Under the pieces are notes generated by a model, which saw only the letters and a list, made by a program, of their open reading frames with translations, was not told the DNA's origin and searched no databases. A stretch of 31,339 nt of DNA from a virus. Positions 6,043 through 28,256 of this stretch are shown here, piece by piece (position 1 is the first letter of the stretch; each line of letters opens with the position of its first letter). A program made the translations under genes and the position numbers. The DNA is taken from positions 1 to 31,339 of the IMG/VR virus record IMGVR_UViG_3300026459_000035. The stretch is one strand, 5' to 3'.

Positions 6043-7387
6043 AAAATTTATTCCTATAATGAACGAGATTAGCCCAACATTTTGTTTAGCTAAGTGGCAC
6101 CATACGACTATCTATTTGCAAACTGGAGAAACTCATAGTTGCTATCATCCAGCTCCACATAAAATTTCGTTGGATGAAATTATTATTGATCCTAGTGCTT
6201 TACATAATACCAATCAAAAAAAACACGAACGCCTTGAAATGCTTAATGGTGGAAAACCTAGTGGCTGTAATTACTGTTGGAACATTGAAGCGTTGGGTGA
6301 AGATTATATCAGTGATAGAAAAGAACGTAATTCGACAATTTATACACCAGAGCGATTTCAGCAGATTAAAGAAGGTGACTGGGATCAAAACATAAATCCA
6401 CAATACATCGAAATATCATTTGGTAACGAGTGTAATTTTAAATGCGGATATTGTCATCCTAAACATTCTAGTAGTTATTATAAAGAAATAAAAGATCATG
6501 GTCCTTATGACATGGTTAAAAATCATCGCAACGATATTGATTGGTTTAGGATTTACGAGGAAGAAGAAAACCCTTATGTTGAAGCATGGTGGCGCTGGTG
6601 GCCCGAAGTTCGTAAAACGTTAACGATCCTTCGTATCACAGGAGGCGAGCCTTTATTACAACAAAGCACATGGAGATTGTTAGAAGATCTAGAAAAGAAT
6701 CCGTTACCTAATCTCGAACTGAATATTAATACAAACTTTGGAGCCAAGCCTGTATTAATAGATCGTCTTGTAGAAAAAGTCAACAATTTAGTTAATGGTA
6801 AGAAAATAAGAGATTTTAAAATTTTTACCAGCATGGATACATGGAATGAACAAGCTGAATATATTAGAACTGGATTAGATATTAATGCTTGGGAAAAGAA
6901 TTTAGACACTTATCTAACTAGAACAAATTTGCCTATAACATTTATGATCACTTTTAATATTTTAACAGTAACTAATTTTCAAAGTCTGTTAGAAAAAATA
7001 TTAGAGTGGAGATCAAAATATAATGGAAGTAATCAAAATAAATGGCAGCGTGTAAGATTTGATACTCCGTTTCTAAAAGAACCTTTACAATATGACATGA
7101 ATATTTTGCCTAAAGAACAGTTCATGCCTTATATGTATAGTCATTTACAATTTATAAAAGACAGAATGGATGACTATGATAGAACTAAATTTAGTGATTT
7201 AGAATATGAAAAATTTAGACGTGTGGTTGATTATATGCAAAACACAAATTACGACCATGAAAAAATACAAGAAGGGCGCAGAGATTTTTATCAATGGTTC
7301 ACTGAATATGATCGACGTAGAGGAACAGATTTTATAAAAACTTTTCCAGAATTAAAAGACTTTTATTATGAATGTAGCACCGTCTAA
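6020..7387 (+). CDS. Radical SAM protein with N-terminal twitch domain
   Basis: About 455 residues. The 4Fe-4S/SAM motif is C-N-F-K-C-G-Y-C (C-x3-C-x2-C) near residue 138, followed by a glycine-rich I-T-G-G-E-P-L near 212, the usual GGE motif. Before the radical SAM domain lies a Cys-containing region (F-C-L-A-K-W, then S-C-Y-H, then C-N-Y-C near 83-86) that resembles a truncated SPASM (twitch) domain placed at the N-terminus, a family I recall from marine phages. It probably performs SAM-radical chemistry on a peptide, sugar or small molecule. The ATG at 6020 has AAAGGAA 7 bases upstream; an internal ATG at 6059 is an alternative. It overlaps the next radical SAM gene by 20 bases. Confidence 0.85.
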   Translation: MDDIVRIKKFIPIMNEISPTFCLAKWHHTTIYLQTGETHSCYHPAPHKISLDEIIIDPSALHNTNQKKHERLEMLNGGKPSGCNYCWNIEALGEDYISDRKERNSTIYTPERFQQIKEGDWDQNINPQYIEISFGNECNFKCGYCHPKHSSSYYKEIKDHGPYDMVKNHRNDIDWFRIYEEEENPYVEAWWRWWPEVRKTLTILRITGGEPLLQQSTWRLLEDLEKNPLPNLELNINTNFGAKPVLIDRLVEKVNNLVNGKKIRDFKIFTSMDTWNEQAEYIRTGLDINAWEKNLDTYLTRTNLPITFMITFNILTVTNFQSLLEKILEWRSKYNGSNQNKWQRVRFDTPFLKEPLQYDMNILPKEQFMPYMYSHLQFIKDRMDDYDRTKFSDLEYEKFRRVVDYMQNTNYDHEKIQEGRRDFYQWFTEYDRRRGTDFIKTFPELKDFYYECSTV

Positions 7388-8552
7388 TACCTTTTGTATA
7401 CTTCCTTGGATACACATATATGTGAACCCTGACGGCAGTGTTTTGCCTTGCTGTATAGGTAACCATCATCTACATCTCGGCAACACAAAAACAAATACCA
7501 TTTCTCAAATCTGGAACAGCGATCAATATAAAGAAATGAGAAAAAATATGCTAACAGGCAAACGATGCGATCAATGCACAGCCTGTTATCGTAGCGAGGA
7601 CGTTGGCCTTAACAGTTTTAGGATCAGTGTCAATAAGCAATACAACAAGCATTTTGATATAATAAAAGAAACAGAATCTGACGGATTTTTGCCTTCGATG
7701 AATTTACGTTACTTCGATGTCCGTTGGAGTAATATATGTAATTTTAAATGTAGATCGTGCAGCGGAACTTACAGTTCTAGTTGGGCTACTGAAGAAAAAA
7801 GATCAAACGTTTATATTTTTGCCGGCGGTGATAATAACGATAATCTCTATGAACAATTTTTGCCTTACTTAAAAGATATTGAAGAATTTTATTTTGCTGG
7901 AGGCGAGCCTTTACTCACAGACAAGCACTATGATATTTTAGAATATCTAATTAGTATAGGTAAGACTGATGTAAAATTAAGATATAACACCAATCTTAGT
8001 TCTTTATCTTATAAAGGTAAATCTGTTTTAGAATTATGGAAACATTTTCGTAATGTTAACATAGATGCTAGTTTAGACAGTTGGGGAGAAAGGGCAGAAT
8101 ATATTCGAGAAGGAACTAATTGGAATATTATAGAACACAATATAAAAAGCATTCAACAGCATACACCTCACGTAAATCTACAGATTAACTCTGTAATATC
8201 AGTTTTTAATATTTCAACTACCGCAGATTTTTACAGTTATCTTATTAAGAATGATATTTTTAACAAACACACGTTTTATCCTAATTTTTATAATTTATTA
8301 AATCCTTCGTTTTATAGTGTTAATGTTTTGCCAGATGAATTCAAAATAAGAATAAAAAACAGATTACAATCTGTATCTGTATCTAAAAATATAGATCAAA
8401 AAATACAAGATATAATAAAATTTTTGGATGCTAGCTCTTACGATGAAAATTTACACAAAGAATTTATTGAAAAAACAAAATATTATGATAGCATAAGAAA
8501 TAGAAATTTTATAGAAACCTTTCCTGAAATAAAGGAATTATTCCATGTCTAA
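7368..8552 (+). CDS. Radical SAM protein with N-terminal twitch domain (second copy)
   Basis: A 394-residue protein with the same layout as its upstream neighbour. The N-terminal twitch region has F-C-I-L-P-W, then V-L-P-C-C-I-G at residues 25-31 and C-D-Q-C-T-A-C at 67-73, enough Cys ligands for an auxiliary Fe-S cluster. The radical SAM motif is C-N-F-K-C-R-S-C (C124, C128, C131), followed by F-A-G-G-E-P-L near 176. The N-terminal region resembles SPASM domains (P-D-G-x-V-x-P-C-C) more closely than the upstream copy does. The two adjacent, overlapping enzymes may act in sequence or as partners. The substrate is unknown; the surrounding glycosyltransferases suggest sugar or virion modification. 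Confidence 0.85.
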   Translation: MNVAPSNTFCILPWIHIYVNPDGSVLPCCIGNHHLHLGNTKTNTISQIWNSDQYKEMRKNMLTGKRCDQCTACYRSEDVGLNSFRISVNKQYNKHFDIIKETESDGFLPSMNLRYFDVRWSNICNFKCRSCSGTYSSSWATEEKRSNVYIFAGGDNNDNLYEQFLPYLKDIEEFYFAGGEPLLTDKHYDILEYLISIGKTDVKLRYNTNLSSLSYKGKSVLELWKHFRNVNIDASLDSWGERAEYIREGTNWNIIEHNIKSIQQHTPHVNLQINSVISVFNISTTADFYSYLIKNDIFNKHTFYPNFYNLLNPSFYSVNVLPDEFKIRIKNRLQSVSVSKNIDQKIQDIIKFLDASSYDENLHKEFIEKTKYYDSIRNRNFIETFPEIKELFHV

Positions 8553-9327: not shown

Positions 9328-10084
9328 AAATTATAAAAGATTCTTTGCTTTCGGTTGTAGTCTGACACGCTACCACTGGCCGACATGGGCTGACATAATA
9401 GCAAGAGAAATTCCAGAATCGTATAACTATGGACAGTCGGGCGCAGGTAATTTGTTTATTTCTAATCAAGTTGTAGAAGCTAATGTTAGACATAAATTTA
9501 ATGACACTGATTTAGTAATGATCATGTGGAGTTCTGTTTCTCGAGAAGACAGATGGATCAAAGGCACCTGGCTAACTCCTGGAAACATTTATACTCAAGA
9601 TTCTTATGACGAAAAATTTATTCAACAGTTTAGTGACTTTAAAGGTTATGTGATTCGTGATTTAAGTTTAATTACAATGTGTAAGGGATTTTTAGATAAC
9701 ATCGGTCTTGACTATCATATGCTTAATATGGCACCATTTTTATCACCCCACATTCAGAGTCCTAATCAATTATTTGATAACGGAGAAACTGTGTTAGATT
9801 TTTATAAGGAAACGTTATCATCTATCCGTCCTGATATTCTTACAGTAGAATATAACGGAGAATGGCCCAAGCATCCGATCAAAGGACACGGTGCCGGACA
9901 AAATAGAGATTATCATCCCGACACAGTTGGCTACGCAAATTATCTCAAGAAAATTTTTCCAGGATTAGAATTTAATAAAAAGACTTATAAATTTATAAAA
10001 GAGCATCAGACTTATATACAACAGGCAACACATATTGATGATCTAATACCAACATGGAATCCTGGTAGACTGTTAAGATTATGA
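9317..10084 (+). CDS. SGNH/GDSL-type hydrolase
   Basis: A 255-residue protein with the SGNH blocks in order. Block I is F-A-F-G-C-S-L-T (nucleophile S15), then G-Q-S-G-A-G-N (G43 and N45 as oxyanion-hole candidates), and the C-terminal block V is D-Y-H-P-D-T-V-G-Y (D198, H200), completing a Ser-Asp-His triad. Such enzymes add or remove acyl or acetyl groups, mostly on carbohydrates. With no signal peptide it probably acts in the host cytoplasm or in the virion. In this cassette, sugar O-acetyl editing is a reasonable inference. It overlaps the previous gene by 11 bases and the next by 4. Confidence 0.75.
   Translation: MKLENYKRFFAFGCSLTRYHWPTWADIIAREIPESYNYGQSGAGNLFISNQVVEANVRHKFNDTDLVMIMWSSVSREDRWIKGTWLTPGNIYTQDSYDEKFIQQFSDFKGYVIRDLSLITMCKGFLDNIGLDYHMLNMAPFLSPHIQSPNQLFDNGETVLDFYKETLSSIRPDILTVEYNGEWPKHPIKGHGAGQNRDYHPDTVGYANYLKKIFPGLEFNKKTYKFIKEHQTYIQQATHIDDLIPTWNPGRLLRL
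9985..9998. repeat. Perfect 14-base AT palindrome inside the SGNH hydrolase gene
   Basis: TTATAAATTTATAA is its own reverse complement and contains TATAAATT on both strands, one base from the T4 late promoter consensus. It encodes part of a Lys/Tyr/Phe/Ile-rich stretch, so codon content alone can explain it. I attach no function. Confidence 0.25.
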
Positions 10085-11265
10085 AATTACTAAATTCTAA
10101 AATTCCTAGTATTAATACCTATGATATCAACAATCCTTCGATAACATGGAGTAATGAGCATACGGCCGGACTAACAGAATTGTTACACAATACTAAATTT
10201 GATTTCGATTTTTGGTATTGTTTTTTTTCTTGCGAAAAAAGTTTTAGAATTTATGATATAACTCAACTAATAGAAAAAGATACGATTGAAAAAATTAAAA
10301 ACAAAGAGGCATTTTTAGTATTAGAAAATACACTAGAGCCATTTGAACTTGTGATAGATTCGATATATGAAAACATTGTTCTTAAAGGAATTCCTGCAGA
10401 ACAGATAATACTCTTGACCAACTTATACGATATTAAAACTTACTGCAAATTAGTTGCAGAAAAACACAATCAACCAATGTTACGTATTTTTTGGTATCCA
10501 GTATTCGAACAAAGTTTAAAGAATGATTTATTGCACAATGTCTACACTGTTGATAGAAATAATAAATCTCCACAGACGTTGCAGATAAAGAAATATCATA
10601 AAGCATTTTTAAATTTTAATCGACGATGGAGATTGCATCGACCATTTTTAGTAGCATTACTTTACGGTAGAAATTTATTAGATAAGGGTTATGTAAGTTT
10701 AGGTCCATGCGAATCTACAGACAATTGGGATTATAGATGGAACGAATTAACTTCTTATTTTAGAGGCGATCAACAAATTTTAAACATATTAGAATCTTGT
10801 TCAGATGTTAAAGAGCTTCCACCTATGTTTTTAGACACTGATGAATTACATATTAATCGTGCAGTGTCTACTATAGATACAAATCAATACTATGAAAACA
10901 GCTATTTTAGTGTTGTATCAGAAACAACCTTTTTCACGAAATACAATTACAATTCTTTTAGATTTCTAAGCGAAAAAGTTTTTAAACCCGTAGCCATGAA
11001 GCATCCGTTTATTCTAGTCAGTGTTCCTCGAAGTTTAGAAATTTTAAAACTAATGGGATACAAAACATTTTCTCCAATCATTAATGAAAATTATGATTCA
11101 GAATTAGATGATGGCAAACGTATGCTAATGATTTTGGATGAAATAGAAAGGTTATCAAACTTCAACAAGCACGAAAGGGCAAATTTTATCTTGCAATGTC
11201 AAGACATTTGCCAGTATAATTATAAAATGCTTCTTTCTAAGACAACATTTATCACAGAGTTATAA
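10081..11265 (+). CDS. GT10/fucosyltransferase-like protein (putative)
   Basis: A 394-residue protein. The most telling part is residues 275-330: Y-F-S-V-V-S-E-T, then F-L-S-E-K-V-F-K-P-V-A, then P-F-I-L-V-S. This resembles the E-N-S ... T/S-E-K ... A ... P-V-V signature of alpha-1,3-fucosyltransferase-type (GT10) donor sites. A paralogue on the opposite strand (13348-14553) shares the E-T, F-S-E-K-T, P-F-L-L-A-A-P and G-F-Q-T-F segments. The N-terminal half is not recognisable. It probably transfers a sugar; donor and acceptor are unknown. The ATG overlaps the previous TGA (ATGA), and its stop overlaps the next ATG by one base. Confidence 0.45.
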   Translation: MKLLNSKIPSINTYDINNPSITWSNEHTAGLTELLHNTKFDFDFWYCFFSCEKSFRIYDITQLIEKDTIEKIKNKEAFLVLENTLEPFELVIDSIYENIVLKGIPAEQIILLTNLYDIKTYCKLVAEKHNQPMLRIFWYPVFEQSLKNDLLHNVYTVDRNNKSPQTLQIKKYHKAFLNFNRRWRLHRPFLVALLYGRNLLDKGYVSLGPCESTDNWDYRWNELTSYFRGDQQILNILESCSDVKELPPMFLDTDELHINRAVSTIDTNQYYENSYFSVVSETTFFTKYNYNSFRFLSEKVFKPVAMKHPFILVSVPRSLEILKLMGYKTFSPIINENYDSELDDGKRMLMILDEIERLSNFNKHERANFILQCQDICQYNYKMLLSKTTFITEL

Positions 11266-13367
11266 TGGCATATCATTTAGGTGACGACAAACATCTTAAT
11301 ACTCTCAAAGCGATTGAGCAGTATGCCAAACCTGTCGAACAAAAAAATACGACCCTTGTAAAAATTAATCATGCTACAAGACGATCAAAGTTAATGTTGG
11401 CATTGTTGCCTCAGTGGGCAGCGGAGTTTCCTCCTTTTAATTTATGTAGACTAAGTGCAGTAGCTAAACAAGCAGGTTATCAGAGTAAAGTTATAGATGC
11501 AAATATCAAAGCATTTAGATATTACGATACACACATAAAAGATAAACTAGATTATAAACTGTGGGATCCGACTACAATTTGGAGATGGTGTGATAATAAT
11601 TACGCTGACATACACAAACACCTCGAACCTATACTACTAGAAATTCTTGATCAAATTGTAGATTACGAGCCAGACCTATTAGGTTTCAGCATTTATCAAA
11701 TGAATGAAGAGCCTACTAAGTGGATGATCCAACAGGTCAAATTAAGAATTCCACATGTTAGAATTGCAGTCGGCGGTCCTAATGTTCACAAAGGATATTT
11801 TGTAAAACAACCTTATTATGATTATGTAGTAAGCGGAGAAGGTGAAGAGGCTATTTTAAAAATATTAGAAGAAGTTGAACGCGATATTAATCACGTAGAT
11901 CAGCAGCACATCATTCAGCCAGAAGAACAACGGCTAAGTCTAAACAAGTTTCCTATGCCTGATTACGATGATATCAATTTTAACGAATATAGAATTTCAA
12001 ACGGTGTAACGACAGAATTAAGTAGAGGCTGCATAGCTAAATGCACATTCTGTGAAGAAACACACTTTTGGAAATATAGACAACGTATGGCGATAGATTC
12101 TTTAGAAGAAGTATCTTATCTTTACGAAAGAGGTATTCGATTATTTTGGTTTATTGATAGTTTAGTAAACGGAAATCTTAAAGAATTGAGAGCATTCGCC
12201 AAGGGTGTTATTGCCAAAGGACTCGATATTAAATGGACAGGATATGCTCGATGCGACGGAAGAATGAATCTTGAGTATATGAAAGATCTAGCAGCCAGCG
12301 GTTGTGTTTATTTAAATTACGGATGTGAATCGGGAAGTCAGAAGATTTTAAATGATATGGCCAAAGGCGTTACCGTTGCAGAAATGGAACAAAATTTTAG
12401 AGACGGCAAAACTGTTGGAATTAAAGCAGCCACTAATTGGATCGTAGCATTTCCTACAGAAACCTATCAGGATTATGCGGATACAATGACATTCTTGATT
12501 CGTAATCGAGATATGAACATTAATAATATGAGCACAGGCATTGGGTTCGGTCAAGGACCGGAGACGATTACAGGACAGAATCCAGACAAGTTTAATTTGT
12601 CATATCAAAAATATTTAGGACACTGGATTACCAAAGATTTTAAAATGGGTGGATCTCATACTCTTATGCGTGTTAAGTGTATGAGCATTTATCTTGATCA
12701 GATTATCGGAGACAGAAAAATAGGTTATCCTATTCGTCCAAATCTTAAGAAATTTCATTATAATATAGAGTATGAGAACGACATTGAAAGAGATGTCGAA
12801 TACGAAAATTTTGATTATAATATAATCAAAACAAACATAAATCCTTATGCCGACGGATTAGTAAATGAAATATGGCCATTCTTAAGAACATTATGGAGAG
12901 TAAGGGGCGGATATGCAACTGTGATAAGATTTAGTCCTGAACTTGATTCTGCAGAATTTGGAAACGGTTACGGCACAGGAAAATATACAGCAGAATTTAA
13001 ATTTAAAATAACAACAGATGGACAATGGTCTGCAGATTTTAAATGGGATTTTATACAACATTGGGAAATTGATTCGTATAGAAATGCCCATCGCCAAGGA
13101 CCATTCTTTGCACAAGACTTTAGTAATATGACCAGCAATGCAGCTATTCGTGCAAGAAGATTAGCAAAACCTGATTGGGGAATGGAAGGTCGTTCAGCAA
13201 CTGACTATAATGATCTGTTCGCTGAAGAAAGAGAATTAAACAAGACTATAGACTGGACTTTTAATTATCACTGGTCCGGAAAGGGCGATTGGGGAAATTA
13301 CAACAGTCAGTCTAAAGAAGTTCCTAATCAAATAATAGAAACACAACCTATACAATTTTATCGTTAA
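11265..13367 (+). CDS. B12-binding-type radical SAM protein
   Basis: A 700-residue protein. The N-terminal 200 residues form a cobalamin-binding-like Rossmann domain: A-L-L-P-Q-W near 46, F-P-P-F-N-L near 55, A-V-A-K-Q-A-G-Y, D-L-L-G-F-S-I near 137, then A-V-G-G-P-N near 168 and V-V-S-G-E-G-E-E near 188. All of these are typical of B12-binding radical SAM proteins. The radical SAM motif is L-S-R-G-C-I-A-K-C-T-F-C (C256, C260, C263). Later G-C-E-S-G-S and P-T-E-T segments also fit. The last 180 residues, rich in Trp, Tyr and Asp, are unrecognised. Family members do methylations, rearrangements or thioether chemistry. It is last in the plus operon; its stop codon overlaps the convergent minus gene by 20 bases. 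Confidence 0.85.
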   Translation: MAYHLGDDKHLNTLKAIEQYAKPVEQKNTTLVKINHATRRSKLMLALLPQWAAEFPPFNLCRLSAVAKQAGYQSKVIDANIKAFRYYDTHIKDKLDYKLWDPTTIWRWCDNNYADIHKHLEPILLEILDQIVDYEPDLLGFSIYQMNEEPTKWMIQQVKLRIPHVRIAVGGPNVHKGYFVKQPYYDYVVSGEGEEAILKILEEVERDINHVDQQHIIQPEEQRLSLNKFPMPDYDDINFNEYRISNGVTTELSRGCIAKCTFCEETHFWKYRQRMAIDSLEEVSYLYERGIRLFWFIDSLVNGNLKELRAFAKGVIAKGLDIKWTGYARCDGRMNLEYMKDLAASGCVYLNYGCESGSQKILNDMAKGVTVAEMEQNFRDGKTVGIKAATNWIVAFPTETYQDYADTMTFLIRNRDMNINNMSTGIGFGQGPETITGQNPDKFNLSYQKYLGHWITKDFKMGGSHTLMRVKCMSIYLDQIIGDRKIGYPIRPNLKKFHYNIEYENDIERDVEYENFDYNIIKTNINPYADGLVNEIWPFLRTLWRVRGGYATVIRFSPELDSAEFGNGYGTGKYTAEFKFKITTDGQWSADFKWDFIQHWEIDSYRNAHRQGPFFAQDFSNMTSNAAIRARRLAKPDWGMEGRSATDYNDLFAEERELNKTIDWTFNYHWSGKGDWGNYNSQSKEVPNQIIETQPIQFYR

Positions 13368-14553
13368 GCAAGACAGTATCTAAAATTTCTCTGTTATGTT
13401 TAATAACAGTTCTCATATCGTAATAGATTGCAGTTAATTCTTGTAATGATTTAGAATTAATATAATCTATAATATCAAAAATTTTAATTAGTCTAGTATA
13501 GTGGTCCTCTTCTCTATCGTAACTTTCATCCCACCATTTATCAAAAGTTTGAAATCCGAAAGTTTTGAGATATTCTAGACTGTAAGGCGGAGCGGCTAAA
13601 AGAAAAGGCATGTTGTTTCCTATTGCAGTTAATGTTTTTTCGCTGAAATAACCAAACGGTTGTGCGTATCTAGTTTCATTAACCACAGCACAAAAGTTAG
13701 ACTCGTAACTCTTTAAAAATTCAGGTGTCCAATTAGGAGCATGACCTCCCGGAATGTATACCTCATTAACTTCTTTAACATCTAACGAGTCTATTTTTTG
13801 ATCTATAACAAGGATATTATTTTCTAAAAAATCGACACCTTTCTTTAATTGATCGTATTGATACGGTCTTTCGATTTGTAATTTTTCTAAATCAAACCAA
13901 TCGTTGTTTTTAAGTTCGTCCCATGAGCATGTTAAATTCCAGGTATACGTTCCGCTGAGTTGTGATAGGTAACTAGTAACAATATGTCTATGGATAGTGT
14001 ATCTCCAGTTACCACACCAGAACTTTTTTTTAATATCGTGTTTGACAAAATATTTAGGAAACTTTTTATAACACTTTCCCATTTCTCTTAGAAATAAATC
14101 TAAACAATCTAGTTTTATTTCTGGATAGTTATCTTGAATTAGTTGTATTTTATAATCAGAGGTAAACACTCTGAATTTTTCGATATTATTATTTTTTACA
14201 AATATCTTTATGCTTTCTAATTCATCTACTATTAAATCTTTAAGATTGATATCTGATTTAAATTCGCTGTAAAAATTTCTATTATGTTCGCCTATTCTAA
14301 AACAGCTAGGTTCATAAAGATAAAAATATATTTCTAAATTACTAGATTTATCAATTAACATTGATTCTAATTCTTTTATTCTTCCGTTGCCAGTATAAAT
14401 GAAATACGGATTTTTTAATTTTTTAAGAAAGCATTGATTCACTAGATATTCTTCTAGATACCCTAGTTTCTTTTCAAACCCTGTGAGATTATTCCAGAAG
14501 AGGTCTTGCGTGTATTCTTCTTCTTTATTCTCTGACCAAATCAAGGGTAACAC
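13348..14553 (-). CDS. GT10-like protein, paralogue of the plus-strand copy
   Basis: A 401-residue protein starting at GTG, supported by AGGAGG 8 bases upstream on the minus strand. Residues 295-345 carry C-A-V-V-N-E-T, G-Y-F-S-E-K-T-L, P-F-L-L-A-A-P and F-G-F-Q-T-F-D, matching the plus-strand protein at 10081-11265 and the GT10-like donor-site pattern. Trp/Tyr-rich segments (K-K-F-W-C-G-N-W-R-Y) near 190 also recall the R-R-W-R region of that paralogue. It is last of four overlapping minus genes and could attach the sugar made by the enzymes upstream. Its 5' end overlaps the amidinotransferase gene by 29 bases. Function is inferred. Confidence 0.45.
   Translation of the reverse strand: MLPLIWSENKEEEYTQDLFWNNLTGFEKKLGYLEEYLVNQCFLKKLKNPYFIYTGNGRIKELESMLIDKSSNLEIYFYLYEPSCFRIGEHNRNFYSEFKSDINLKDLIVDELESIKIFVKNNNIEKFRVFTSDYKIQLIQDNYPEIKLDCLDLFLREMGKCYKKFPKYFVKHDIKKKFWCGNWRYTIHRHIVTSYLSQLSGTYTWNLTCSWDELKNNDWFDLEKLQIERPYQYDQLKKGVDFLENNILVIDQKIDSLDVKEVNEVYIPGGHAPNWTPEFLKSYESNFCAVVNETRYAQPFGYFSEKTLTAIGNNMPFLLAAPPYSLEYLKTFGFQTFDKWWDESYDREEDHYTRLIKIFDIIDYINSKSLQELTAIYYDMRTVIKHNREILDTVLLNDKIV
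13391..13409 (+). terminator. Possible terminator hairpin of the plus-strand cassette
   Basis: CTGTTAT (13391-13397) and ATAACAG (13403-13409) are perfect 7-base arms around a 5-base loop. They lie 23 bases past the stop of the B12-type radical SAM gene, inside the 3' end of the convergent gene. The tail is TTCTC rather than a clear T-run, so intrinsic termination would be weak. Confidence 0.35.
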
Positions 14554-15436
14554 AGTGGTGACCTCCTCCGAGTGTTCTGCTATGTCGCAGATCTATTCCG
14601 ATGCTTTCAACATTATACTTTGAAAGTTGATGTCGTAGAAACGTTTGTTTAGGATCGCAAATAATTAAATTAGGATTAACTGTTAAAAAATTTAAAGCTA
14701 TAAATTTACTAGCATATGGATAACCGTCGAATGGTTGTGTAACAAGATCGTCACCGGTGATCCAAATTTTATCCCAAGACTTAAACACTGATGGTAAATT
14801 AGTTTGATTTATTCTATCGGCATTAAGAACCACTAAACCTTCTCGTATCGGACAAATAGTGCTATCAATATGAACACCGTTATAGATATTATCTAGAATA
14901 TGAACCTTGTGGTCTGGGAATATAGATTGCAGCCATTCACCGCCTGATACATTTCCACTTTCACTAATAAGATATAATAAATCGTTGTTTAATCTACACA
15001 CGTTGGCTGCATCAAATTTAATTTCTGGATTACTAGTAGATATCAGATCGTCTTTGAAAAAATGTTTTATAGCATCAAGCTCTTTTATTCTTGTAGGATA
15101 TAAGACCGGAGCGTCTACAGCTTGGGTTCCTATAATTAATACTCTATCTCTAGGGCAATAATTATACATACCGTCAAACGATTGAAAATCTAAATCAACA
15201 GGTCTATATACTTTTATAGACAGAGATTCTAATGTTTGTTTAAAAATTTCTAAGTCTTCGTTGGTTTCTTCTATTATTCGTTGACTCAGCGGTCCAGAAG
15301 GAACAGGAGTTTCTTTCCAAGCAGTAGTATTTTCTAAATTTCTAAAGAAAGGACATTTTGCAGGCCAGTGTGCATTGGTAGCTGTGCCTAAAATAACTTC
15401 TTTTAAAGGATCCCATTCGTTTTTAGAATTAATCAT
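14525..15436 (-). CDS. Glycine-amidinotransferase-like enzyme (AGAT/StrB family)
   Basis: A 303-residue protein. The N-terminus has N-E-W-D-P-L-K-E-V-I-L-G (6-17), the hallmark start of arginine:glycine and arginine:inosamine amidinotransferases. All catalytic positions I remember for the family are present: P-R-D (D97), F-D-A-A-N (D142), V-H-I-D-S-T (H189, D191), N-A-D-R (R208), A-S-K (S243) and G-G-G-H-H-C-V-T (nucleophile C295). It should move an amidino group from arginine to an amine, giving a guanidino compound plus ornithine. The acceptor is not readable from sequence. It overlaps the aminotransferase gene by 8 bases, so an amino sugar or amino cyclitol is an attractive acceptor. It is shorter than human AGAT (about 420). 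Confidence 0.88.
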   Translation of the reverse strand: MINSKNEWDPLKEVILGTATNAHWPAKCPFFRNLENTTAWKETPVPSGPLSQRIIEETNEDLEIFKQTLESLSIKVYRPVDLDFQSFDGMYNYCPRDRVLIIGTQAVDAPVLYPTRIKELDAIKHFFKDDLISTSNPEIKFDAANVCRLNNDLLYLISESGNVSGGEWLQSIFPDHKVHILDNIYNGVHIDSTICPIREGLVVLNADRINQTNLPSVFKSWDKIWITGDDLVTQPFDGYPYASKFIALNFLTVNPNLIICDPKQTFLRHQLSKYNVESIGIDLRHSRTLGGGHHCVTLDLVRE

Positions 15437-16019
15437 TGATTTTTATATCTCTACAATCTGGGTATTCGACAAATTTAATGTCGAACAAATTATTTTTTTT
15501 ATACTGATCTAACTTTTCAAGACCTTTGATACATTCTTCCGGGTTTAATTTATAATGAAATCCTAAACTAAATTCTTTCTGATCTTGCCATGGACTTATG
15601 TTTAAGTCTCTTCCGTCATATCTTAGCATAGATATTTTTTTGTAATCGTTATAATTATCTAATAATATTGCACCGCCTCTTCCTATGTCTAAGGGTTTTG
15701 AATATCCAAAACTTAAACATTGAAGCATTCCGGGGCGATACATGTTGGGTTCTAGTCTTCTAGCACTATCCCATATATCTGTTCCGTAAAATCTATATTC
15801 ACCAGTCCATTTTTCCGGAACTAAATTATATTCGATTCCTAGCTTGACCATAGTCATAGGCACTGAGAGATATGTGAATGCTGTAAATCCTGTTCTTTTA
15901 ACTTTCTTGTATCTTAAACATAATTCTATTGCGTGAGTGCAACAGTCAGTAGTGATTACATATGGAGCTCCGGTAAACTCCGACAGAGCTTTTTCAAATT
16001 CAAATATTTTATTAAACAT
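15429..16019 (-). CDS. Short DegT/DnrJ/EryC1/StrS-family aminotransferase
   Basis: A 196-residue protein, about half the family's usual length (roughly 370-400). It has the PLP-fold N-terminal part: F-E-K-A-L-S-E-F-T-G-A at 8-18, a T-D-C-C-T-H-A turn equivalent to the S-G-T-x-A phosphate loop, D-I-W-D-S-A near 81-86 (D84 for the pyridine nitrogen), and S-F-G-Y-S-K-P-L-D-I-G-R-G-G (Schiff-base K108). It ends just after the segment equivalent to G-Y-N-Y-R-M ... Q-L and lacks the C-terminal small domain. The lysine is kept and its frame is clean, so it looks like a compact phage version, not debris. It would make an amino sugar from a keto sugar, or may be non-catalytic. Confidence 0.75.
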   Translation of the reverse strand: MFNKIFEFEKALSEFTGAPYVITTDCCTHAIELCLRYKKVKRTGFTAFTYLSVPMTMVKLGIEYNLVPEKWTGEYRFYGTDIWDSARRLEPNMYRPGMLQCLSFGYSKPLDIGRGGAILLDNYNDYKKISMLRYDGRDLNISPWQDQKEFSLGFHYKLNPEECIKGLEKLDQYKKNNLFDIKFVEYPDCRDIKIND

Positions 16020-16512
16020 CTGTGAAAGTTATTTGGGCAGTATATCTAGGTTCTAATCCAAGATTAGCGGCCATATGTGGAGCGTCATATCTCCACAATA
16101 CATATTCACCTGCCTGCCATTTGGTTATTGGTTCGCCCTCTATTTCGAATATGTGTCCTGGTTTCCAATCTTCTAAGAATATTATAGCTCTCCATATAGA
16201 CTCGTTGTCGGTGATATTGAAGATTTTTTTATAATAGCTATACGTATCTTGATGATAGGGTAATATATTGCAAGTTTCCATTTTATAAAAACTTAGGCCT
16301 TGATTTTTTCCTTGAAAAATTGATAGAAATTTTTCAGACCATGTCGGCATCACAGATTTCATATCATACATTAGACCTGTGAAATGTGTTTGAGAAAAAC
16401 CTTGAGACCTCCATTGAGAAACATCGTCGTTACAATTGAATGGTTCTCTTTGATATATTAGGTATCTATGATTTAAATCCCAGAACGGTTCTATCAAACC
16501 TTGTTTATACAA
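16012..16512 (-). CDS. 2-oxoglutarate/Fe(II)-dependent oxygenase-like protein
   Basis: A 166-residue protein. It shows the facial triad P-Y-H-Q-D-T (H87, D89) with D-A-P-H-M-A-A-N (H146), and an Arg ten residues later (R156) for 2-oxoglutarate. G-E-Y-V-L-W before the second His is typical of aspartyl/asparaginyl-hydroxylase-like jelly rolls. It starts at TTG with GGAG 7 bases upstream, and no better ATG exists nearby. It is first in a four-gene minus operon (8-base overlap with the aminotransferase). It probably hydroxylates the small molecule handled by the next genes, or a protein side chain. Confidence 0.75.
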   Translation of the reverse strand: MYKQGLIEPFWDLNHRYLIYQREPFNCNDDVSQWRSQGFSQTHFTGLMYDMKSVMPTWSEKFLSIFQGKNQGLSFYKMETCNILPYHQDTYSYYKKIFNITDNESIWRAIIFLEDWKPGHIFEIEGEPITKWQAGEYVLWRYDAPHMAANLGLEPRYTAQITFTDV

Positions 16513-16543: not shown

Positions 16544-16551
16544 TATTTATT
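16544..16551 (-). promoter_or_regulatory. Possible late promoter for the amidinotransferase operon
   Basis: The minus strand reads AATAAATA here, one mismatch from the T4 late consensus TATAAATA, 31 bases before the TTG start at 16512. The 49-base gap 16513-16561 is the only divergent region in the window. On the plus strand the best matching element is ACTAAATA, two mismatches off. Support is weak because the region is very AT-rich. Confidence 0.35.
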
Positions 16552-16561
16552 GAGGTTAAAA

Positions 16562-17788
16562 ATGCAAATTGGTTTTATTGGTTTGGGTAAATTAGGACTT
16601 CCCTGTGCAGAAGCAATGGCTCACAAAGGACATACTATAAAAGGTTATGATATAACTCCGAGAAATAGTGATTCAGTTACTGTAGTTGATTCGATAAAAG
16701 AATGTGTAACTGATACTGACATTGTTTTTATTGCAGTTCCAACTCCGCATGATCCTCTATATGATGGCAGAGCACCAACGGCTCATCTCAAACCAAAAGA
16801 TTTTTCATATGACATTGTGAAAACTTGTTTAACAGAAGCAAACAAGTATATGAATAAGAAACAACTACTTGTTCTTATTTCTACAGTATTGCCTGGAACG
16901 ACTCGAAGAGAATTTATTCATTTGGTTACAAATACTAGATTTGTTTATAATCCTTATTTGATAGCTATGGGCAGCGTGGCATGGGATATGGTCAATCCAG
17001 AAATGGTAATGATAGGAACAGAAGATGGTTCTGAGAACGGTGACGCTGAACAGTTAATTAATTTTTATAAAACTGTCATGGAAAATAATCCAAGATATGA
17101 AGTAGGCACCTGGGACGAATGTGAATGCATTAAAGTTTTTTATAATACTTTCATTAGTGCTAAAATTGGATTAGTCAATATGATACAAGACGTTGCTATA
17201 AGACAAGGTAACATTGACGTTGATGTTGTGACCAATGCTTTAGCTAAATCGACTATGCGTATCATGGGACCTCAATATATGAAGGCTGGTATGGGAGACG
17301 GCGGCGCATGCCATCCTAGAGACAATATAGCTCTAAGATATATGGCTGATAAATTAAATCTTGGATACGACCTATTCGATTCTATAATGAACGCCAGAGA
17401 ATTACAGGCTAAGAATCTTGCCCAAGAACTTGTTAAACACGCTGAAGAAAATCGAATGAGTATCTTCATCCACGGAAAAGCCTATAAGCCCGGAGTAGAA
17501 TACTGCGATGGCAGTTATAGTTTATTAATAGGTCATTATTGCGAGGAATTAGGACATAAGCCTACTTATATTGACCCATTAACTGGAGATGACATCCAGG
17601 GATGCTATGGTGTTGTGCTATTGGCACACAATAGAAAGGTAACTTACGAATATCGCGGATTTGAAGAAACGCAAAATTTATATTGTAAAATAGAAAAAGG
17701 ATCAATCGTTATTGATCCTTGGAGAAGTTTTAAATCAGAAGATTATAAAATTATACACTACGGTAACACTAGAAAATACTATCAGTAG
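16562..17788 (+). CDS. UDP-glucose/GDP-mannose dehydrogenase-type nucleotide-sugar dehydrogenase
   Basis: A 408-residue protein from ATG 16562, which places M-Q-I-G-F-I-G-L-G-K-L-G-L-P at the very start (NAD-binding G-x-G-x-x-G) with GAGG 6 bases upstream. A-V-P-T-P (about 60), a Lys in E-C-I-K-V-F-Y-N-T and the nucleophile in G-D-G-G-A-C-H-P-R-D (C250) match the two-step oxidation of a nucleotide hexose to the uronic acid. The family usually has G-F-G-G-S-C-F-P-K-D. The C-terminal G-K-A-Y-K-P-G fits the substrate domain. The protein is slightly shorter than bacterial Ugd. It likely supplies UDP-hexuronate (or a related donor) to the glycosyltransferases and is divergent from the amidinotransferase operon. 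Confidence 0.88.
   Translation: MQIGFIGLGKLGLPCAEAMAHKGHTIKGYDITPRNSDSVTVVDSIKECVTDTDIVFIAVPTPHDPLYDGRAPTAHLKPKDFSYDIVKTCLTEANKYMNKKQLLVLISTVLPGTTRREFIHLVTNTRFVYNPYLIAMGSVAWDMVNPEMVMIGTEDGSENGDAEQLINFYKTVMENNPRYEVGTWDECECIKVFYNTFISAKIGLVNMIQDVAIRQGNIDVDVVTNALAKSTMRIMGPQYMKAGMGDGGACHPRDNIALRYMADKLNLGYDLFDSIMNARELQAKNLAQELVKHAEENRMSIFIHGKAYKPGVEYCDGSYSLLIGHYCEELGHKPTYIDPLTGDDIQGCYGVVLLAHNRKVTYEYRGFEETQNLYCKIEKGSIVIDPWRSFKSEDYKIIHYGNTRKYYQ
17692..17720 (-). terminator. Rho-independent terminator of the minus-strand early block, antisense within the dehydrogenase gene
   Basis: AAGGATCAAT (17697-17706) and ATTGATCCTT (17711-17720) are perfect 10-base arms around a 4-base loop. Read on the minus strand, the stem is followed by T residues (CCTTTTTC, ending at 17692). 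It lies about 49 bases past the stop at 17769 of the last minus-strand gene, so it is well placed to stop that operon. It lies inside the coding sequence of the convergent dehydrogenase. Stem GC is low, so strength is uncertain. Confidence 0.6.
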
Positions 17789-21779: not shown

Positions 21780-22213
21780 GTATTATTCTTCTTCACACTC
21801 TGTATGTCTAAAGAACCTGTTTCCACAGGGCCACCGTAATCGCCATCTACTACAACATTGGCACAAAGCTCACGGAACCAACGATCGACAATTTCTTCAT
21901 CATTGTCACCTTCAACACCGTAACCTTCTTGCTTTAATTTTAGCACAAAATGGTCGTTCCAGTCAAGCTCAAAAAAGCCATTACGCACATTATCTTTGTT
22001 TACATGGGTATTTAATACGCCAACCCATGGCTCTTTCTTTCGAGTAGCACGATCTTTTGGACTCAATTTAGCCAATTCTTGCTCTTGAGCAATTTCTTTT
22101 AAACTATTTTCAGCTTCTTCTTTTAATTTGGTAGCTTGTTCAAGTGCCAATCGAGCTTCTTCGATATTGGCTTCAATTTTATCTAAACCAAATAATTTTT
22201 TAATAATTTTCAT
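21776..22213 (-). CDS. Coiled-coil protein of unknown function
   Basis: 145 residues from the ATG at 22213, which overlaps the QueE stop by one base (TAATG); a start at 22225 would add four residues. Residues 10-50 are an Ala/Glu/Lys-rich amphipathic helix, probably a coiled coil. From residue 60 a compact domain follows (P-W-V-G-V-L-N-T-H-V-N, N-G-F-F-E-L-D-W-N, then I-V-D-R-W-F-R-E-L). I recall this second part from T4-like marine phages. It sits between queE and rnh; no function is known to me. Confidence 0.75.
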   Translation of the reverse strand: MKIIKKLFGLDKIEANIEEARLALEQATKLKEEAENSLKEIAQEQELAKLSPKDRATRKKEPWVGVLNTHVNKDNVRNGFFELDWNDHFVLKLKQEGYGVEGDNDEEIVDRWFRELCANVVVDGDYGGPVETGSLDIQSVKKNNT

Positions 22214-23064
22214 TAAGTTCCCCATTCATTTTTAAATAAAGGCACCTGTAAGCGATCTGAATAGCGCAGTCCGTTCTTCATTGCTAGTTCCGCTACGCGG
22301 CGATTATTTAATGTATAAACACTCTCCACACCGCCTACTGGCATCAAATATACAGGGCCACTAAAACCTTCTGCACGATATATATCAACTGTTTCAATAG
22401 CTTCCTCGGCATCTTCTTCTGTAGCTACTACAAATTTCAGATATGTATAACCGACTTCTTCGTATTCACAAACTACATCTGGACGAATAGCTTCGTGACG
22501 TTCTTCTCCTGAACAACTTAGCTTGGCACTAACACTAAATGTGAGTTTATGATAGCCTCTATCCTCCATGCCCCAATTTAATAGATAATTTTTAAATTCA
22601 GGCGATAACTTTTGAGTTCCGTTTGTCTCAAATGTAATTTCTTTAAGATTTTTCATCTTAGGATGTTCTAACAGTTCGGGGTAAGCACGTTGCCACCCAA
22701 GCAATGGTTCTCCTCCGGTGATAACCAAGTGCTCCTCTCTCCATTCGTTGAACGGTAGAATTTCGCAGATTCTTTCTGCGATGGCGTCGGAAGTAAGCAT
22801 TGGGCTAAGATCCTTAAAGCGAGGATCCCAGCTAGCATAACTATCACAACCAGTAGAAACCAATGGAAGTTCTTCATACTTCGTAAACTCTCCAATTCGA
22901 GCAGCAACAGCTTCTACTTCTGTGCTTAGTTCACCTTTAGGCATACCGAAGCCAGCACATTTAAAGTTACAGCCGAATGTGCGTAAAAAAACAGAAGGCA
23001 CACCCATATAGCGTCCTTCACCTTGAATGCTGTAAAACAGCTCTGCGATTTTAATTTTGCTCAT
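22213..23064 (-). CDS. queE: 7-carboxy-7-deazaguanine synthase (QueE), phage type
   Basis: A 283-residue radical SAM protein. The N-terminus I-A-E-L-F-Y-S-I-Q-G-E-G-R-Y-M-G-V-P-S is the QueE signature, and I-T-G-G-E-P-L-L near 115 is the GGE motif. The Fe-S cysteines are unusual: C32 and C36 (G-C-N-F-K-C) but no third Cys two residues later. Instead T-G-C-D-S-Y-A-S-W (C73) aligns with the C-D-T of ordinary QueE, implying an insertion of about 34 residues inside the cluster motif. It converts 6-carboxytetrahydropterin to CDG in the preQ0 route. With FolE and a QueD-like gene nearby it suggests 7-deazaguanine production. Confidence 0.88.
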   Translation of the reverse strand: MSKIKIAELFYSIQGEGRYMGVPSVFLRTFGCNFKCAGFGMPKGELSTEVEAVAARIGEFTKYEELPLVSTGCDSYASWDPRFKDLSPMLTSDAIAERICEILPFNEWREEHLVITGGEPLLGWQRAYPELLEHPKMKNLKEITFETNGTQKLSPEFKNYLLNWGMEDRGYHKLTFSVSAKLSCSGEERHEAIRPDVVCEYEEVGYTYLKFVVATEEDAEEAIETVDIYRAEGFSGPVYLMPVGGVESVYTLNNRRVAELAMKNGLRYSDRLQVPLFKNEWGT

Positions 23065-23651: not shown

Positions 23652-24037
23652 TTACGATAATTTCCTCTTTCTGGAATGACATGTCTGACTCCGCCTGTTG
23701 GATCTTCCATGTCACCGTTTCTTCTTGGAATTAAATGAACATGTGGCCATGGCACTGTTTGACCTGCTGCTTTTCCATAGTTTAATCCGATATTGAATCC
23801 GTCGCAATCACCGTTTTCGACCATTCTCATACCGTCTCGAACAGCAGACTCAACTGCATCCATTAAGACAGCCACAGTATTATACTTAGGAACAAAAAGC
23901 AAATGGCCAGGAGTAACAGGATATATATCTCTAAATACTTTAACATGGTAATCCTCTTCTTCTAATTCTGTCCACGGAGCTTCGCCGTCATCTATAAAAG
24001 GAGGCTGTTCCTTCATTACTTTTTCTGTATCATTCAT
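23645..24037 (-). CDS. HIT-family nucleotide hydrolase/transferase-like protein
   Basis: A 130-residue protein. Y-P-V-T-P-G-H-L-L-F-V-P-K (39-51) and G-Q-T-V-P-W-P-H-V-H-L-I-P-R (92-105) are the two HIT blocks. The usual H-x-H-x-H triad reads W97-x-H99-x-H101, so the first His is replaced by Trp while the catalytic middle His is kept. It probably acts on nucleotides (AMP-lysine, ApnA or similar). It overlaps the phosphoribosyltransferase gene by 4 bases, which suggests related nucleotide metabolism. Annotators may simply call it HIT domain protein. Confidence 0.85.
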   Translation of the reverse strand: MNDTEKVMKEQPPFIDDGEAPWTELEEEDYHVKVFRDIYPVTPGHLLFVPKYNTVAVLMDAVESAVRDGMRMVENGDCDGFNIGLNYGKAAGQTVPWPHVHLIPRRNGDMEDPTGGVRHVIPERGNYRKW

Positions 24038-24618
24038 TTAGTCCACCAATCTTCCCAGGGAAAGTCAACCCAAACATCATTTTCAGCTTTGTTAACTTCC
24101 ATGCCAGAATAATCCATTTTTGCATTACACTTACTAGAAACATTATCCACTAGCACAGCAAATTTAACATTGTTATTCCATACTTCTTCCCAACTTGGAT
24201 CGTTCGGAAAACATCCACTAGGCCAATCTTCCATGATCCAATTAAGAGTAGCGCCACTGTCGTTGATATCGTCGACAATTAAAATATTTTTATAAGTATC
24301 TCCGGCTTCTAGTAAATCGCTGGCAGCTTCTAATATACCTGCAACATCTACAGGATTTTCTACGTATCTCTCTTTATTGGCACCTAGAGCATCCTCAGCC
24401 ATCCAAAGATTACTTTCTCGTTCACCACTGTCTCTAAGACTTACGTTTAGTGTTTCGCAGGGAACATTAAAGTAATGACTGATCATAACAGCAGGAATCA
24501 ATCCACCGCGAGTTAGTCCCACTACATAATCAGGACGCCAGCCAGTGTTTGTGATATCTCTACAAATCTTAGCGACTAGGCCTTTTAGTTGTTCGTTATT
24601 AATTATGAGCTTGTTCAT
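24034..24618 (-). CDS. Phosphoribosyltransferase (type I PRTase fold)
   Basis: A 194-residue protein. V-V-G-L-T-R-G-G-L-I-P-A (32-43) and the PRPP loop I-L-I-V-D-D-I-N-D-S-G-A-T-L (112-125) are diagnostic of hypoxanthine/xanthine-type PRTases. It should join a base to PRPP, in salvage or in making an unusual nucleotide. An acidic insertion (W-P-S-G-C-F-P-N-D) follows the loop and the C-terminus is Trp/Asp-rich. The specificity is not readable. It overlaps the cupin gene by 20 bases. Confidence 0.85.
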   Translation of the reverse strand: MNKLIINNEQLKGLVAKICRDITNTGWRPDYVVGLTRGGLIPAVMISHYFNVPCETLNVSLRDSGERESNLWMAEDALGANKERYVENPVDVAGILEAASDLLEAGDTYKNILIVDDINDSGATLNWIMEDWPSGCFPNDPSWEEVWNNNVKFAVLVDNVSSKCNAKMDYSGMEVNKAENDVWVDFPWEDWWTK

Positions 24619-25060
24619 ATCTTTCCTTGAGGTATTGTTCGTGTTGAATCCATTTGTTATTAACTAAGAATCCCCAATCACGCTTATGAGGTCCAGGCAT
24701 AAACAATGTCCATGCAGTTACTCCTTCTTTCAGCTCAATGCGATGATAGCTATTAGGGCTGCAAATACGGAAATGCCCAGGCCCACGCCAATGCCGTGTT
24801 TCACCGATCTTGGCACCTTGCGAATTAAAGTCGGGAGTCCACTCATAGTAGCCTCCTTTAAGGATTAGTGTAGCATAGGGCCAGGGATGATCATGCACAT
24901 CATCTGGATCACCTTTTAAAAATTTGTGAAGGAATACGTTAAAAGGAAAACGTTCTCTTTCTTTCAAAAAGAGATAATACCGTTCGAGATACGGTTCATT
25001 ATGCACACGATCAAAAATGATACGTTTGCGGCCAAATCGTTCAAGCAGTTTCAGCAACAT
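24599..25060 (-). CDS. Cupin-domain protein
   Basis: A 153-residue protein. D-P-D-D-V-H-D-H-P-W near residue 51-60 (H56, H58), L-I-L-K-G-G-Y-Y-E-W near 65-74 and Y-H-R-I-E near 105 (H106) form the metal-binding barrel of a small cupin. Pro and Gly turns match the fold. It may be a dioxygenase, isomerase or sugar epimerase-like enzyme. The substrate is unknown. Its 20-base overlaps on both sides bind it into the same transcript as the glycosylase and the phosphoribosyltransferase. Confidence 0.75.
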   Translation of the reverse strand: MLLKLLERFGRKRIIFDRVHNEPYLERYYLFLKERERFPFNVFLHKFLKGDPDDVHDHPWPYATLILKGGYYEWTPDFNSQGAKIGETRHWRGPGHFRICSPNSYHRIELKEGVTAWTLFMPGPHKRDWGFLVNNKWIQHEQYLKERYEQAHN

Positions 25061-26308: not shown

Positions 26309-27145
26309 TTACCTCGGAGCAAATTCTTGTTGTAGTTTAATATTATCAAAGAATTCTTTTTTAGTGCCAGAATCGTCTTTGAATGCACCTTTTAATACTG
26401 TAGTCTGTGTTAATGAACTATGTGCCATAATGCCGCGATTCTCACAGCAACCGTGGGTGGCTTGAATATAAACACCTAGGTCTTTGGCTCCGGTGGCCTT
26501 TTCGATCTCCCTAGCAATATCATTAGCAAGTTCCTCCTGGAGAGTTCCACGTCTTGCACACCACTGTGCGATCCTTGTATACTTTGAGAGCCCGATAAGA
26601 TGCTGGGCAGCAATAATGCCAATATAAGCAACGCCAACAACGGGTTGGTGATGATGGCTACACATACTGCGAAGCTCGCTACGAACAACCAACATACCTT
26701 CGTAACGGTCCTCCGAATCATTTGGAAACGATGTTGCTGCGGGACTTGGGTCATATCTACCTGCCATTATCTCATTAAAATACATCTTGGCCAGTCTACG
26801 TGCTGTGCCTTTGCTATTAGGATCGTTTTCGCGATCAATTAATAGACGATCAAGCACTAGTTCAAATGCTTCTGTTGCTTCATCGATAAGTTTTTCTTTA
26901 TCGCCTTCGTGTAAGAAGTCGCTGATATTATCGCCGGCCCAAAAACGTTTACCTTCACGTTTCATCTTAAAGCGAAGGTGATCTCCCAAGTATGCTTCTT
27001 CATAGCCGCCATTGCCTGCCATGGCATCTAAGGCCGTTTCTTTTTTAACATAAACAGGCTTACCTAAAGGTTCGTATTGGTCTTTTATAAATGTTTTGTC
27101 GATTTCTGCATTTAATACAGGATCTGGTTTAAATTCGTTTTTCAA
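26309..27145 (-). CDS. folE: GTP cyclohydrolase I (FolE)
   Basis: A 278-residue protein. The core has G-T-A-R-R-L-A-K-M-Y near 113 (substrate site), M-C-S-H-H-H-Q-P at 161-168 (zinc ligand C162 and His residues), G-L-S-K-Y-T-R-I-A-Q-W near 185 and H-G-C-C-E-N-R-G-I near 231-239 (second zinc Cys). It converts GTP to dihydroneopterin triphosphate, the first step of folate and of preQ0/7-deazaguanine synthesis. An N-terminal extension of about 80 residues makes it longer than usual (about 220). It starts at TTG with GGAG 6 bases upstream. It probably feeds QueD-like and QueE proteins. Confidence 0.92.
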   Translation of the reverse strand: MKNEFKPDPVLNAEIDKTFIKDQYEPLGKPVYVKKETALDAMAGNGGYEEAYLGDHLRFKMKREGKRFWAGDNISDFLHEGDKEKLIDEATEAFELVLDRLLIDRENDPNSKGTARRLAKMYFNEIMAGRYDPSPAATSFPNDSEDRYEGMLVVRSELRSMCSHHHQPVVGVAYIGIIAAQHLIGLSKYTRIAQWCARRGTLQEELANDIAREIEKATGAKDLGVYIQATHGCCENRGIMAHSSLTQTTVLKGAFKDDSGTKKEFFDNIKLQQEFAPR

Positions 27146-27179: not shown

Positions 27180-28256
27180 TTATTTTAACATCTCTAATAG
27201 TTTATCACAACTAAAAAAGTTATTTTTGAGCTCATCTACCTGTTTATTTAGGCTTGGCAGAAACTTTTCATAATTTTCCATATACTGTATAATTTTATAA
27301 CAGATTTCTTTTCTATGAATAGTATATGCTTCAAATGATTCTGTCCAGTCGCTTGGATACTTAAACGGATCAAAAGCCATTTCGGCATAGCTTAATCGAT
27401 CAGGAACCATAGGAATAGCATCTACCAAAGCACCCTCATACCAACTAATGCCTAGAGTTTCTTGAAGATTAGCACTGAAAACTAATTTTGCTTCGCCTAA
27501 TAGGTTATGGTATTCGTTTTTAGTTAATTGTTGATCCTGACATACAACAAATTCATATTGCGGCAAGTGTTCTTTTAAATCTCTAAAAATATCAACTTGT
27601 TTTTCAGGAGCGATGCGATGAGGAAATAGTATAAGATTTCGTTTAGGCATATTCTTATACATCAAAAGAGTGTCGGGCATATATTCCATAGGCCAGCCTG
27701 ATCTTACGATTTTACCTTCATTGATAAAATCTTTGATAGTATCTTCTAAAGTTTCCCACAGTAAATTGCTACAAAACATATCGATGTGAAATTTAGTAGC
27801 AAAGTAATTATGATCGATCGCAGCAAAGAAAGATTTCTCCGCATGTCTAACCCACGGAGCATCTCCGATTAAGCGACCGAGAAAATCTTGAGGATCATAA
27901 CTGCCAGCATGCCATAATGCGTGAATGACTACTTTGATACCAAGTAGTTCACTCATATATTTTAAGTTTATGATACCAGGGTGCCAAGCATCAGTAAACA
28001 AAAAATGATCGCCAGGCTTAACTGCTCCGGATGTAAATAACCTACTAAATTCCTCAACTTGTCGAGACTTATATATATTAGTCCCCCCAAAATTAAGAAA
28101 GGCACCAGGAGTAGTGGCTTTAGGAATATCTTCAGGACCACTGATAACTTGAACATCATGACCTCTCTTTCGCAACAATGCAGGCAAGTGGGTTTTCCAC
28201 TCGCCTGTGTAGCGTGTCTCTACGGCCTCTAAATCAACGAGAAAAACTTTGGCCAT
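27180..28256 (-). CDS. GT-B glycosyltransferase (GT4-like)
   Basis: 358 residues from M-A-K-V-F-L-V-D-L-E; an alternative ATG at 28268 adds four residues. The fold is GT-B: an N-terminal Rossmann unit, and a C-terminal donor domain with P-H-R-I-A-P-E-K (near 217, Lys contacting the phosphate) and E-T-L-G-I-S-W-Y-E, the E-x7-E motif of GT4-type retaining enzymes (near 266-274). It should move a sugar from a nucleotide donor, perhaps to modified phage DNA, as do T4-like glucosyl- and arabinosyltransferases, or to another acceptor. Its place among replication-type genes favours DNA, without proof. Confidence 0.8.
   Translation of the reverse strand: MAKVFLVDLEAVETRYTGEWKTHLPALLRKRGHDVQVISGPEDIPKATTPGAFLNFGGTNIYKSRQVEEFSRLFTSGAVKPGDHFLFTDAWHPGIINLKYMSELLGIKVVIHALWHAGSYDPQDFLGRLIGDAPWVRHAEKSFFAAIDHNYFATKFHIDMFCSNLLWETLEDTIKDFINEGKIVRSGWPMEYMPDTLLMYKNMPKRNLILFPHRIAPEKQVDIFRDLKEHLPQYEFVVCQDQQLTKNEYHNLLGEAKLVFSANLQETLGISWYEGALVDAIPMVPDRLSYAEMAFDPFKYPSDWTESFEAYTIHRKEICYKIIQYMENYEKFLPSLNKQVDELKNNFFSCDKLLEMLK

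Follow-up and report, generated by a model that had tools for sequence, protein, structure and literature searches.

What might a virus make with an apparent oxygenase, an aminotransferase-like protein, an amidinotransferase and a putative glycosyltransferase encoded in one operon? This question is raised by the IMG/VR virus record IMGVR_UViG_3300026459_000035, which was analysed over its entire length of 31,339 bases (the window, outside which the record holds no sequence). Four minus-strand open reading frames (ORFs) were read, and they are predicted to encode a small Fe(II)/2-oxoglutarate-type oxygenase (OXY), a compact pyridoxal phosphate (PLP) aminotransferase-like protein (mini-DegT), an L-arginine amidinotransferase (AMT) and the putative glycosyltransferase. 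The ORFs lie exactly as in the preliminary description of this DNA, with successive overlaps of 8, 8 and 29 bases (Table 1), though the last gene may truly start further inside, since alignments with its homologues often begin only near residue 13, which could make the 29-base overlap shorter. In codon comparisons with relatives at 74-89% protein identity, all four genes had dN/dS values near 0.05-0.1 wherever dS was unsaturated, indicating that they are real, maintained genes, and the remaining comparisons gave low dN with saturated dS. The preliminary description had read the operon as a pathway to a guanidino-modified glycan, which our analysis supports in part, namely in the amidinotransferase, its coupling to an aminotransferase and the glycan setting. 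We regard the chances as evenly balanced that the operon is an oxidise/aminate/amidinate module plus a transferase, yielding a guanidino-bearing surface glycan.

Among solved structures, the best phmmer match of AMT was StrB1 (PDB: 1bwd, E = 6.2e-59), and human AGAT (E = 3e-27), SxtG (E = 1.5e-24) and HsvA (E = 1.7e-22) were also matched, with full-length homology to the solved members. The catalytic triad is complete (D142, H189 and C295) and R96/D97, D191 and R208 are also kept; triad and StrB1 match together bear out the amidinotransferase assignment and the catalytic positions first described. Across 117 viral and cellular sequences the triad His and Cys are invariant; at position 142, 95 of them have Asp and 22 have Glu. 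The Glu form (FEAAN in alignment A5) belongs to those viral AMTs that have a class I/II aminotransferase as partner, for example at loci L042, L054, L055 and L058. On the acceptor side, the stretch YNGVHIDST (YxxxHxDST) is closer to YASTHVDST of StrB1 than to NPMHIDAT of AGAT, the acceptor of which is glycine. In the phylogenetic tree, the window clade formed its own viral branch and Streptomyces griseus StrB1 (L119) fell among the cellular sequences, and orthology of AMT to StrB1 was rejected on account of this separate branch. Judged by its sequence, AMT is an AGAT/StrB-family enzyme, a relative of StrB1 but no orthologue; its PHROGs entry, phrog_25854, is labelled 'unknown function'. Very divergent amidinotransferase homologues (68-123 bits) are encoded at L173:5980-7020, L193:239-1378 and L219:4560-5618, those of L173 and L193 directly upstream of a mini-DegT gene and within a FolE cassette.

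The 196-residue mini-DegT matched Pfam DegT (E = 1.6e-14), and a profile of 20 family members found PDB entries of sugar aminotransferases (E down to 6e-11), with K108 (the PLP lysine), D84 and S103 invariant across the 20 members. Its AlphaFold model (predicted local distance difference test, pLDDT, 91) was matched by Foldseek to GDP-perosamine synthase (best, E = 5.5e-10), WbpE and ArnB. According to the model, mini-DegT would share with these enzymes the fold and the PLP lysine and aspartate, but it differs from them in having no C-terminal domain and a shorter middle part, and identity in the structural matches is 16-19%. Family members have about 191-205 residues, compared with about 370 for full two-domain DegT enzymes, and the compact form is conserved in the family rather than being a local truncation. 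The original reading as a DegT/StrS-type protein with its PLP lysine stands as to the family and K108, but the protein has about half the usual DegT length, which had gone unremarked.

Mini-DegT proved to be a very common viral family, with at least 583 confirmed relatives, and 78 mini-DegT-seeded loci (L163-L240) were scored. The usual setting is a cassette of glycosyltransferase-like, epimerase, mini-DegT and FolE genes: an NAD-dependent epimerase gene (in one example, Pfam Epimerase E = 6.5e-56) lies immediately upstream of mini-DegT in 52 of these loci, and FolE lies within four genes in 71 and immediately downstream in 64. AMT is present in 8, and a strict tie of mini-DegT to AMT was rejected because the other 70 are without it. 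The window has a FolE gene (26309-27145) directly adjoining a glycosyltransferase-like gene (27180-28268); L167 and similar relatives carry a mini-DegT between these two genes, whereas the window has none at that spot, its sole mini-DegT being that of the amidinotransferase operon.

The evidence for a joint function comes from the neighbourhood of AMT, which is conserved in many aquatic viruses. A scan of viral contigs found 116 amidinotransferase relatives, 80 of which were kept and 78 loci scored (35 non-redundant), and a partner gene was counted when it lay within four genes. A PLP aminotransferase was near AMT in 70 of the 78 viral loci (29 of the 35 non-redundant ones), OXY in 68, and OXY and aminotransferase together in 63. 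The coupling of amidinotransferase to aminotransferase proposed at first is thus upheld, and AMT homologues lacking the aminotransferase are the minority among the scored viral loci. The aminotransferase is mini-DegT in 28 loci and a second type in 42, and no locus has both. This second type is a class I/II protein of about 310 residues with a GTTES phosphate site, DxAY and an SLSK lysine (Pfam Aminotran_1_2, E = 1.9e-6), and a scan for it gave 56 new loci, 54 of them with AMT. The oxygenase slot is also filled by alternative families: the AspH-like OXY, 2OG-FeII_Oxy_3 (2OG, 2-oxoglutarate) in L044 and L102, and a PhyH-like protein in L079. Moreover, mini-DegT is paired with AMTs on at least four branches of the tree (the window clade, L044, the cyanophage S-SCSM2R, and the divergent L173/L193/L219). 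As the linkage survives replacement of its parts, it argues strongly for a pathway common to these genes.

Phage glycan islands are mosaic and the gene order of the module differs among loci, as might be seen if the genes were passengers of such islands, brought together by chance local recombination and serving no joint pathway. We consider this highly improbable, given that the same slots were repeatedly refilled by non-orthologous genes, that mini-DegT and AMT were joined independently more than once, and that strong purifying selection acts on all four genes. In the cellular genome collection, an aminotransferase of these families was near AMT in 2 of 62 scored contigs (L102 and L111), both virus-looking, and cellular AMT homologues, StrB1 included, are without the module. 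On L102 (7998-14069), a virus-like contig binned as Chloroflexi, oxygenase, amidinotransferase, mini-DegT and carbamoyltransferase genes are followed by a gene that appears halogenase-like, by eye only.

In OXY, residues H87, D89, H146, R108 and N150 are invariant across 33 homologues, nearly all of which have R or K ten residues past H146. Weak matches to Pfam Asp_Arg_Hydrox were obtained for 9 of the 33 (best E = 0.0033), the window protein itself matched no Pfam family, and the OXY profile found AtsK in the PDB weakly, at E = 0.024 only. The HxD...H site suggests an Fe(II)/2-oxoglutarate-type oxygenase, with weak profile support. The resemblance of OXY to AspH, together with the several radical SAM/SPASM genes adjoining the module, would also suit a modification of protein or peptide side chains of the virion, made with the radical SAM enzymes. 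Such a role seems very unlikely, as no precursor peptide was identified, and the adjoining UDP-glucose dehydrogenase-like gene (UGD), the putative glycosyltransferases and the sugar-aminotransferase fold of mini-DegT favour sugars.

The fourth protein, of 401 residues, gave no sequence match in Pfam, PHROGs, NCBIfam or PDB searches. Its AlphaFold model (pLDDT 86) was weakly matched by Foldseek to T4 beta-glucosyltransferase (BGT; E = 4.4e-3, TM 0.34) and a fucosyltransferase (E = 0.036); almost all of the structures close to it are uncultured-phage proteins without a name, and its family occurs in several copies per locus. For the glycosyltransferase label given at first, our analysis found this weak fold similarity and no match in sequence, and a GT-B-like glycosyltransferase is at best a weak prediction from the model. 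With T4 DNA beta-glucosyltransferase providing the top PDB matches, the operon might be thought to hypermodify phage DNA, with a base decorated by all four enzymes (the last as a BGT-like transferase) and given the guanidino group, and by eye the module of the class I/II clade does lie among genes resembling replication genes. We hold this to be quite unlikely: the BGT match is weak and at the fold level only, the window showed no recognisable enzyme for base hydroxymethylation, the neighbours are nucleotide-sugar enzymes, radical SAM genes and repeated glycosyltransferase genes, and the AMT genes of S-SCSM2R and the Campylobacter phage CP220 lie in islands of glycosyltransferase or nucleoside diphosphate (NDP)-sugar transferase genes.

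UGD has the N-terminal and central UDPG_MGDP_dh Pfam domains above the cut-off and the C-terminal one below it, matches the PHROG of UDP-glucose dehydrogenase (E = 1e-99) and contains the catalytic Cys motif GDGGACHPRD as read in the sequence; by motif and domains it appears to be UDP-glucose dehydrogenase-like. It lies within four genes of AMT in 29 of the 78 viral loci. The glycan setting envisaged for the operon is strengthened by the UGD-like genes, by the putative glycosyltransferases and by the epimerase genes that adjoin mini-DegT at most of its other loci. A cyclitol, the other product first envisaged, is less likely, and that pathway was set aside, because none of the window genes scanned was recognisable as an inositol enzyme. 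The creatine route was also set aside, no guanidinoacetate (creatine) methyltransferase having been recognised.

This last result bears on the possibility that the acceptor of AMT is a polyamine, an amino acid or the phosphate of a small amino alcohol, with the product a free guanidino metabolite for virocell metabolism or excretion. A survey of marine viruses reported viral enrichment of a methyltransferase gene of the creatine pathway and discussed glycine amidinotransferase (PMC11360552), and in the sister clade the aminotransferase is of class I/II with HisC-like sequence and some loci carry CTP_transf_like genes. Nevertheless, we judge a free metabolite unlikely, as no creatine methyltransferase was recognised, glycosyltransferase-like genes and UGD stand beside the module, and the acceptor side of AMT resembles that of StrB1 and not that of AGAT.

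In the guanidino-glycan pathway that we propose, the Fe/2-oxoglutarate oxygenase would hydroxylate or oxidise a sugar-like intermediate at one carbon, mini-DegT would then install an amine at this position, and the StrB/AGAT-type enzyme would pass the amidino group of arginine to that amine. The GT-B-like protein would attach the guanidino-bearing residue to a glycan of the virion or the host surface; the residue is probably carried on a nucleotide sugar, which the adjoining UDP-sugar dehydrogenase would help to make. The order in which the enzymes act is inferred, as are all of their activities, their substrate and whether the target lies on the virion or the host surface.

Several points weigh against this pathway. 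The substrate, with a sugar as the acceptor, is a deduction, and the glycosyltransferase assignment is weak. Mini-DegT is without the C-terminal domain, so its enzyme activity is not assured, and most members of its family occur without AMT. UGD alone would give a uronate and not a ketone, so the keto-forming step is either missing or performed by the oxygenase. The larger sister group has a class I/II aminotransferase in place of a sugar-type DegT, and the usual substrates of that class would be amino acids, keto acids or phosphates, not nucleotide sugars. Furthermore, L007, L012, L029 and L030 keep the oxygenase and AMT without a nearby aminotransferase. For the wider family, we put forward tentatively, and with somewhat less than even confidence, a virus-specific guanidino-sugar pathway that is common in aquatic viruses, uses a single-domain DegT and has had its oxygenase and aminotransferase replaced by unrelated enzymes.

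Table 1 Predicted genes of the operon and its surroundings in the 31,339-base window.
Feature	Coordinates	Strand	Evidence
OXY, predicted small Fe(II)/2-oxoglutarate-type oxygenase, 166 aa	16012..16512	-	HxD...H = H87, D89, H146; R/K at 156
Mini-DegT, compact PLP aminotransferase-like, 196 aa	15429..16019	-	K108, D84; without C-terminal domain
AMT, predicted L-arginine amidinotransferase of AGAT/StrB family, 303 aa	14525..15436	-	Triad D142/H189/C295
Putative GT-B-like glycosyltransferase, 401 aa	13348..14553	-	Weak fold matches; several family copies in these viruses
UGD, UDP-glucose/UDP-sugar dehydrogenase-like, divergent neighbour	16550..17788	+	Pfam UDPG_MGDP_dh domains, GGxC...RD motif
Radical SAM enzyme with B12-binding domain, gene convergent with that of the putative glycosyltransferase; possible glycan-island member	11265..13367	+	Pfam Radical_SAM, B12-binding
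Second copy of putative glycosyltransferase family	10081..11265	+	Family hidden Markov model, E 4e-84
SPASM/twitch radical SAM protein, possible island member	7368..8552	+	NCBIfam N_Twi_rSAM E 7e-120, above cut-off

B12-radical-SAM genes like that of the window also occur in the amidinotransferase loci L044 and L102. Elsewhere in the window, the gene at 442-1392 gave no sequence match and its identity as a tail protein could not be confirmed. A QueE-like gene (22213-23064) and the GTP cyclohydrolase gene (26309-27145) may belong to a preQ0 (deazaguanine) pathway, QueC and QueD not being seen, and phosphoribosyltransferase-like and cysteine-dioxygenase-like (PHROG) genes lie at 24034-25060 in a minus-strand operon.

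In streptomycin biosynthesis, a StsC-type DegT aminotransferase is paired with the inosamine-phosphate amidinotransferase StrB1. The viral module resembles this system in the AGAT/StrB family, the same triad and the pairing of a DegT aminotransferase with an amidinotransferase. However, the viral AMT stands on a separate branch and is about 35 residues shorter in the middle than StrB1, no inositol enzymes were recognised, the aminotransferase is of half length, and an oxygenase and a putative glycosyltransferase are added. Among phages, an amidinotransferase was annotated earlier in the Campylobacter phages CP220 and CPt10, with no function proposed in the passage on that gene (PMC2853527). 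There, too, the gene stands beside radical SAM and NDP-sugar transferase genes, after the virion genes, but its product is very divergent (about 24% identity), and neither of the two aminotransferase families (mini-DegT and class I/II) nor the OXY family was found there. The cyanophage S-SCSM2R (PQ898602) carries a mini-DegT ('AHBA synthase'), a radical SAM protein, an oxygenase and an 'inosamine amidinotransferase' amid five annotated glycosyltransferases; unlike in the window, its glycosyltransferases are of other families and its AMT is on a different branch (36% identity for AMT, 40% for mini-DegT and 30% for the oxygenase). S-SCSM2R also has a second, divergent amidinotransferase homologue with an adjacent 2OG oxygenase beside KdsA/KdsB (L299:8354-9932, corresponding to S-SCSM2R 213353-214931).

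The open-access literature yielded no paper on this module or on a viral guanidino sugar. The statement in the preliminary description that no such phage pathway had been described holds for the function but not for the genes, since amidinotransferases had already been annotated in CP220/CPt10 (PMC2853527) and in S-SCSM2R. What was known earlier is thus the annotated phage amidinotransferases, and neither the module nor a function for it was found described in that literature.

S-SCSM2R is an isolate on Synechococcus WH7803 that carries the set and is open to testing. If the proposed pathway is true, it would give a function to the viral amidinotransferase family PHROG 25854 and to the common mini-DegT family. 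Aquatic viruses would then possess a pathway dedicated to decorating surface glycans with a cationic, streptomycin-like group, a chemistry that we did not find described for viruses.

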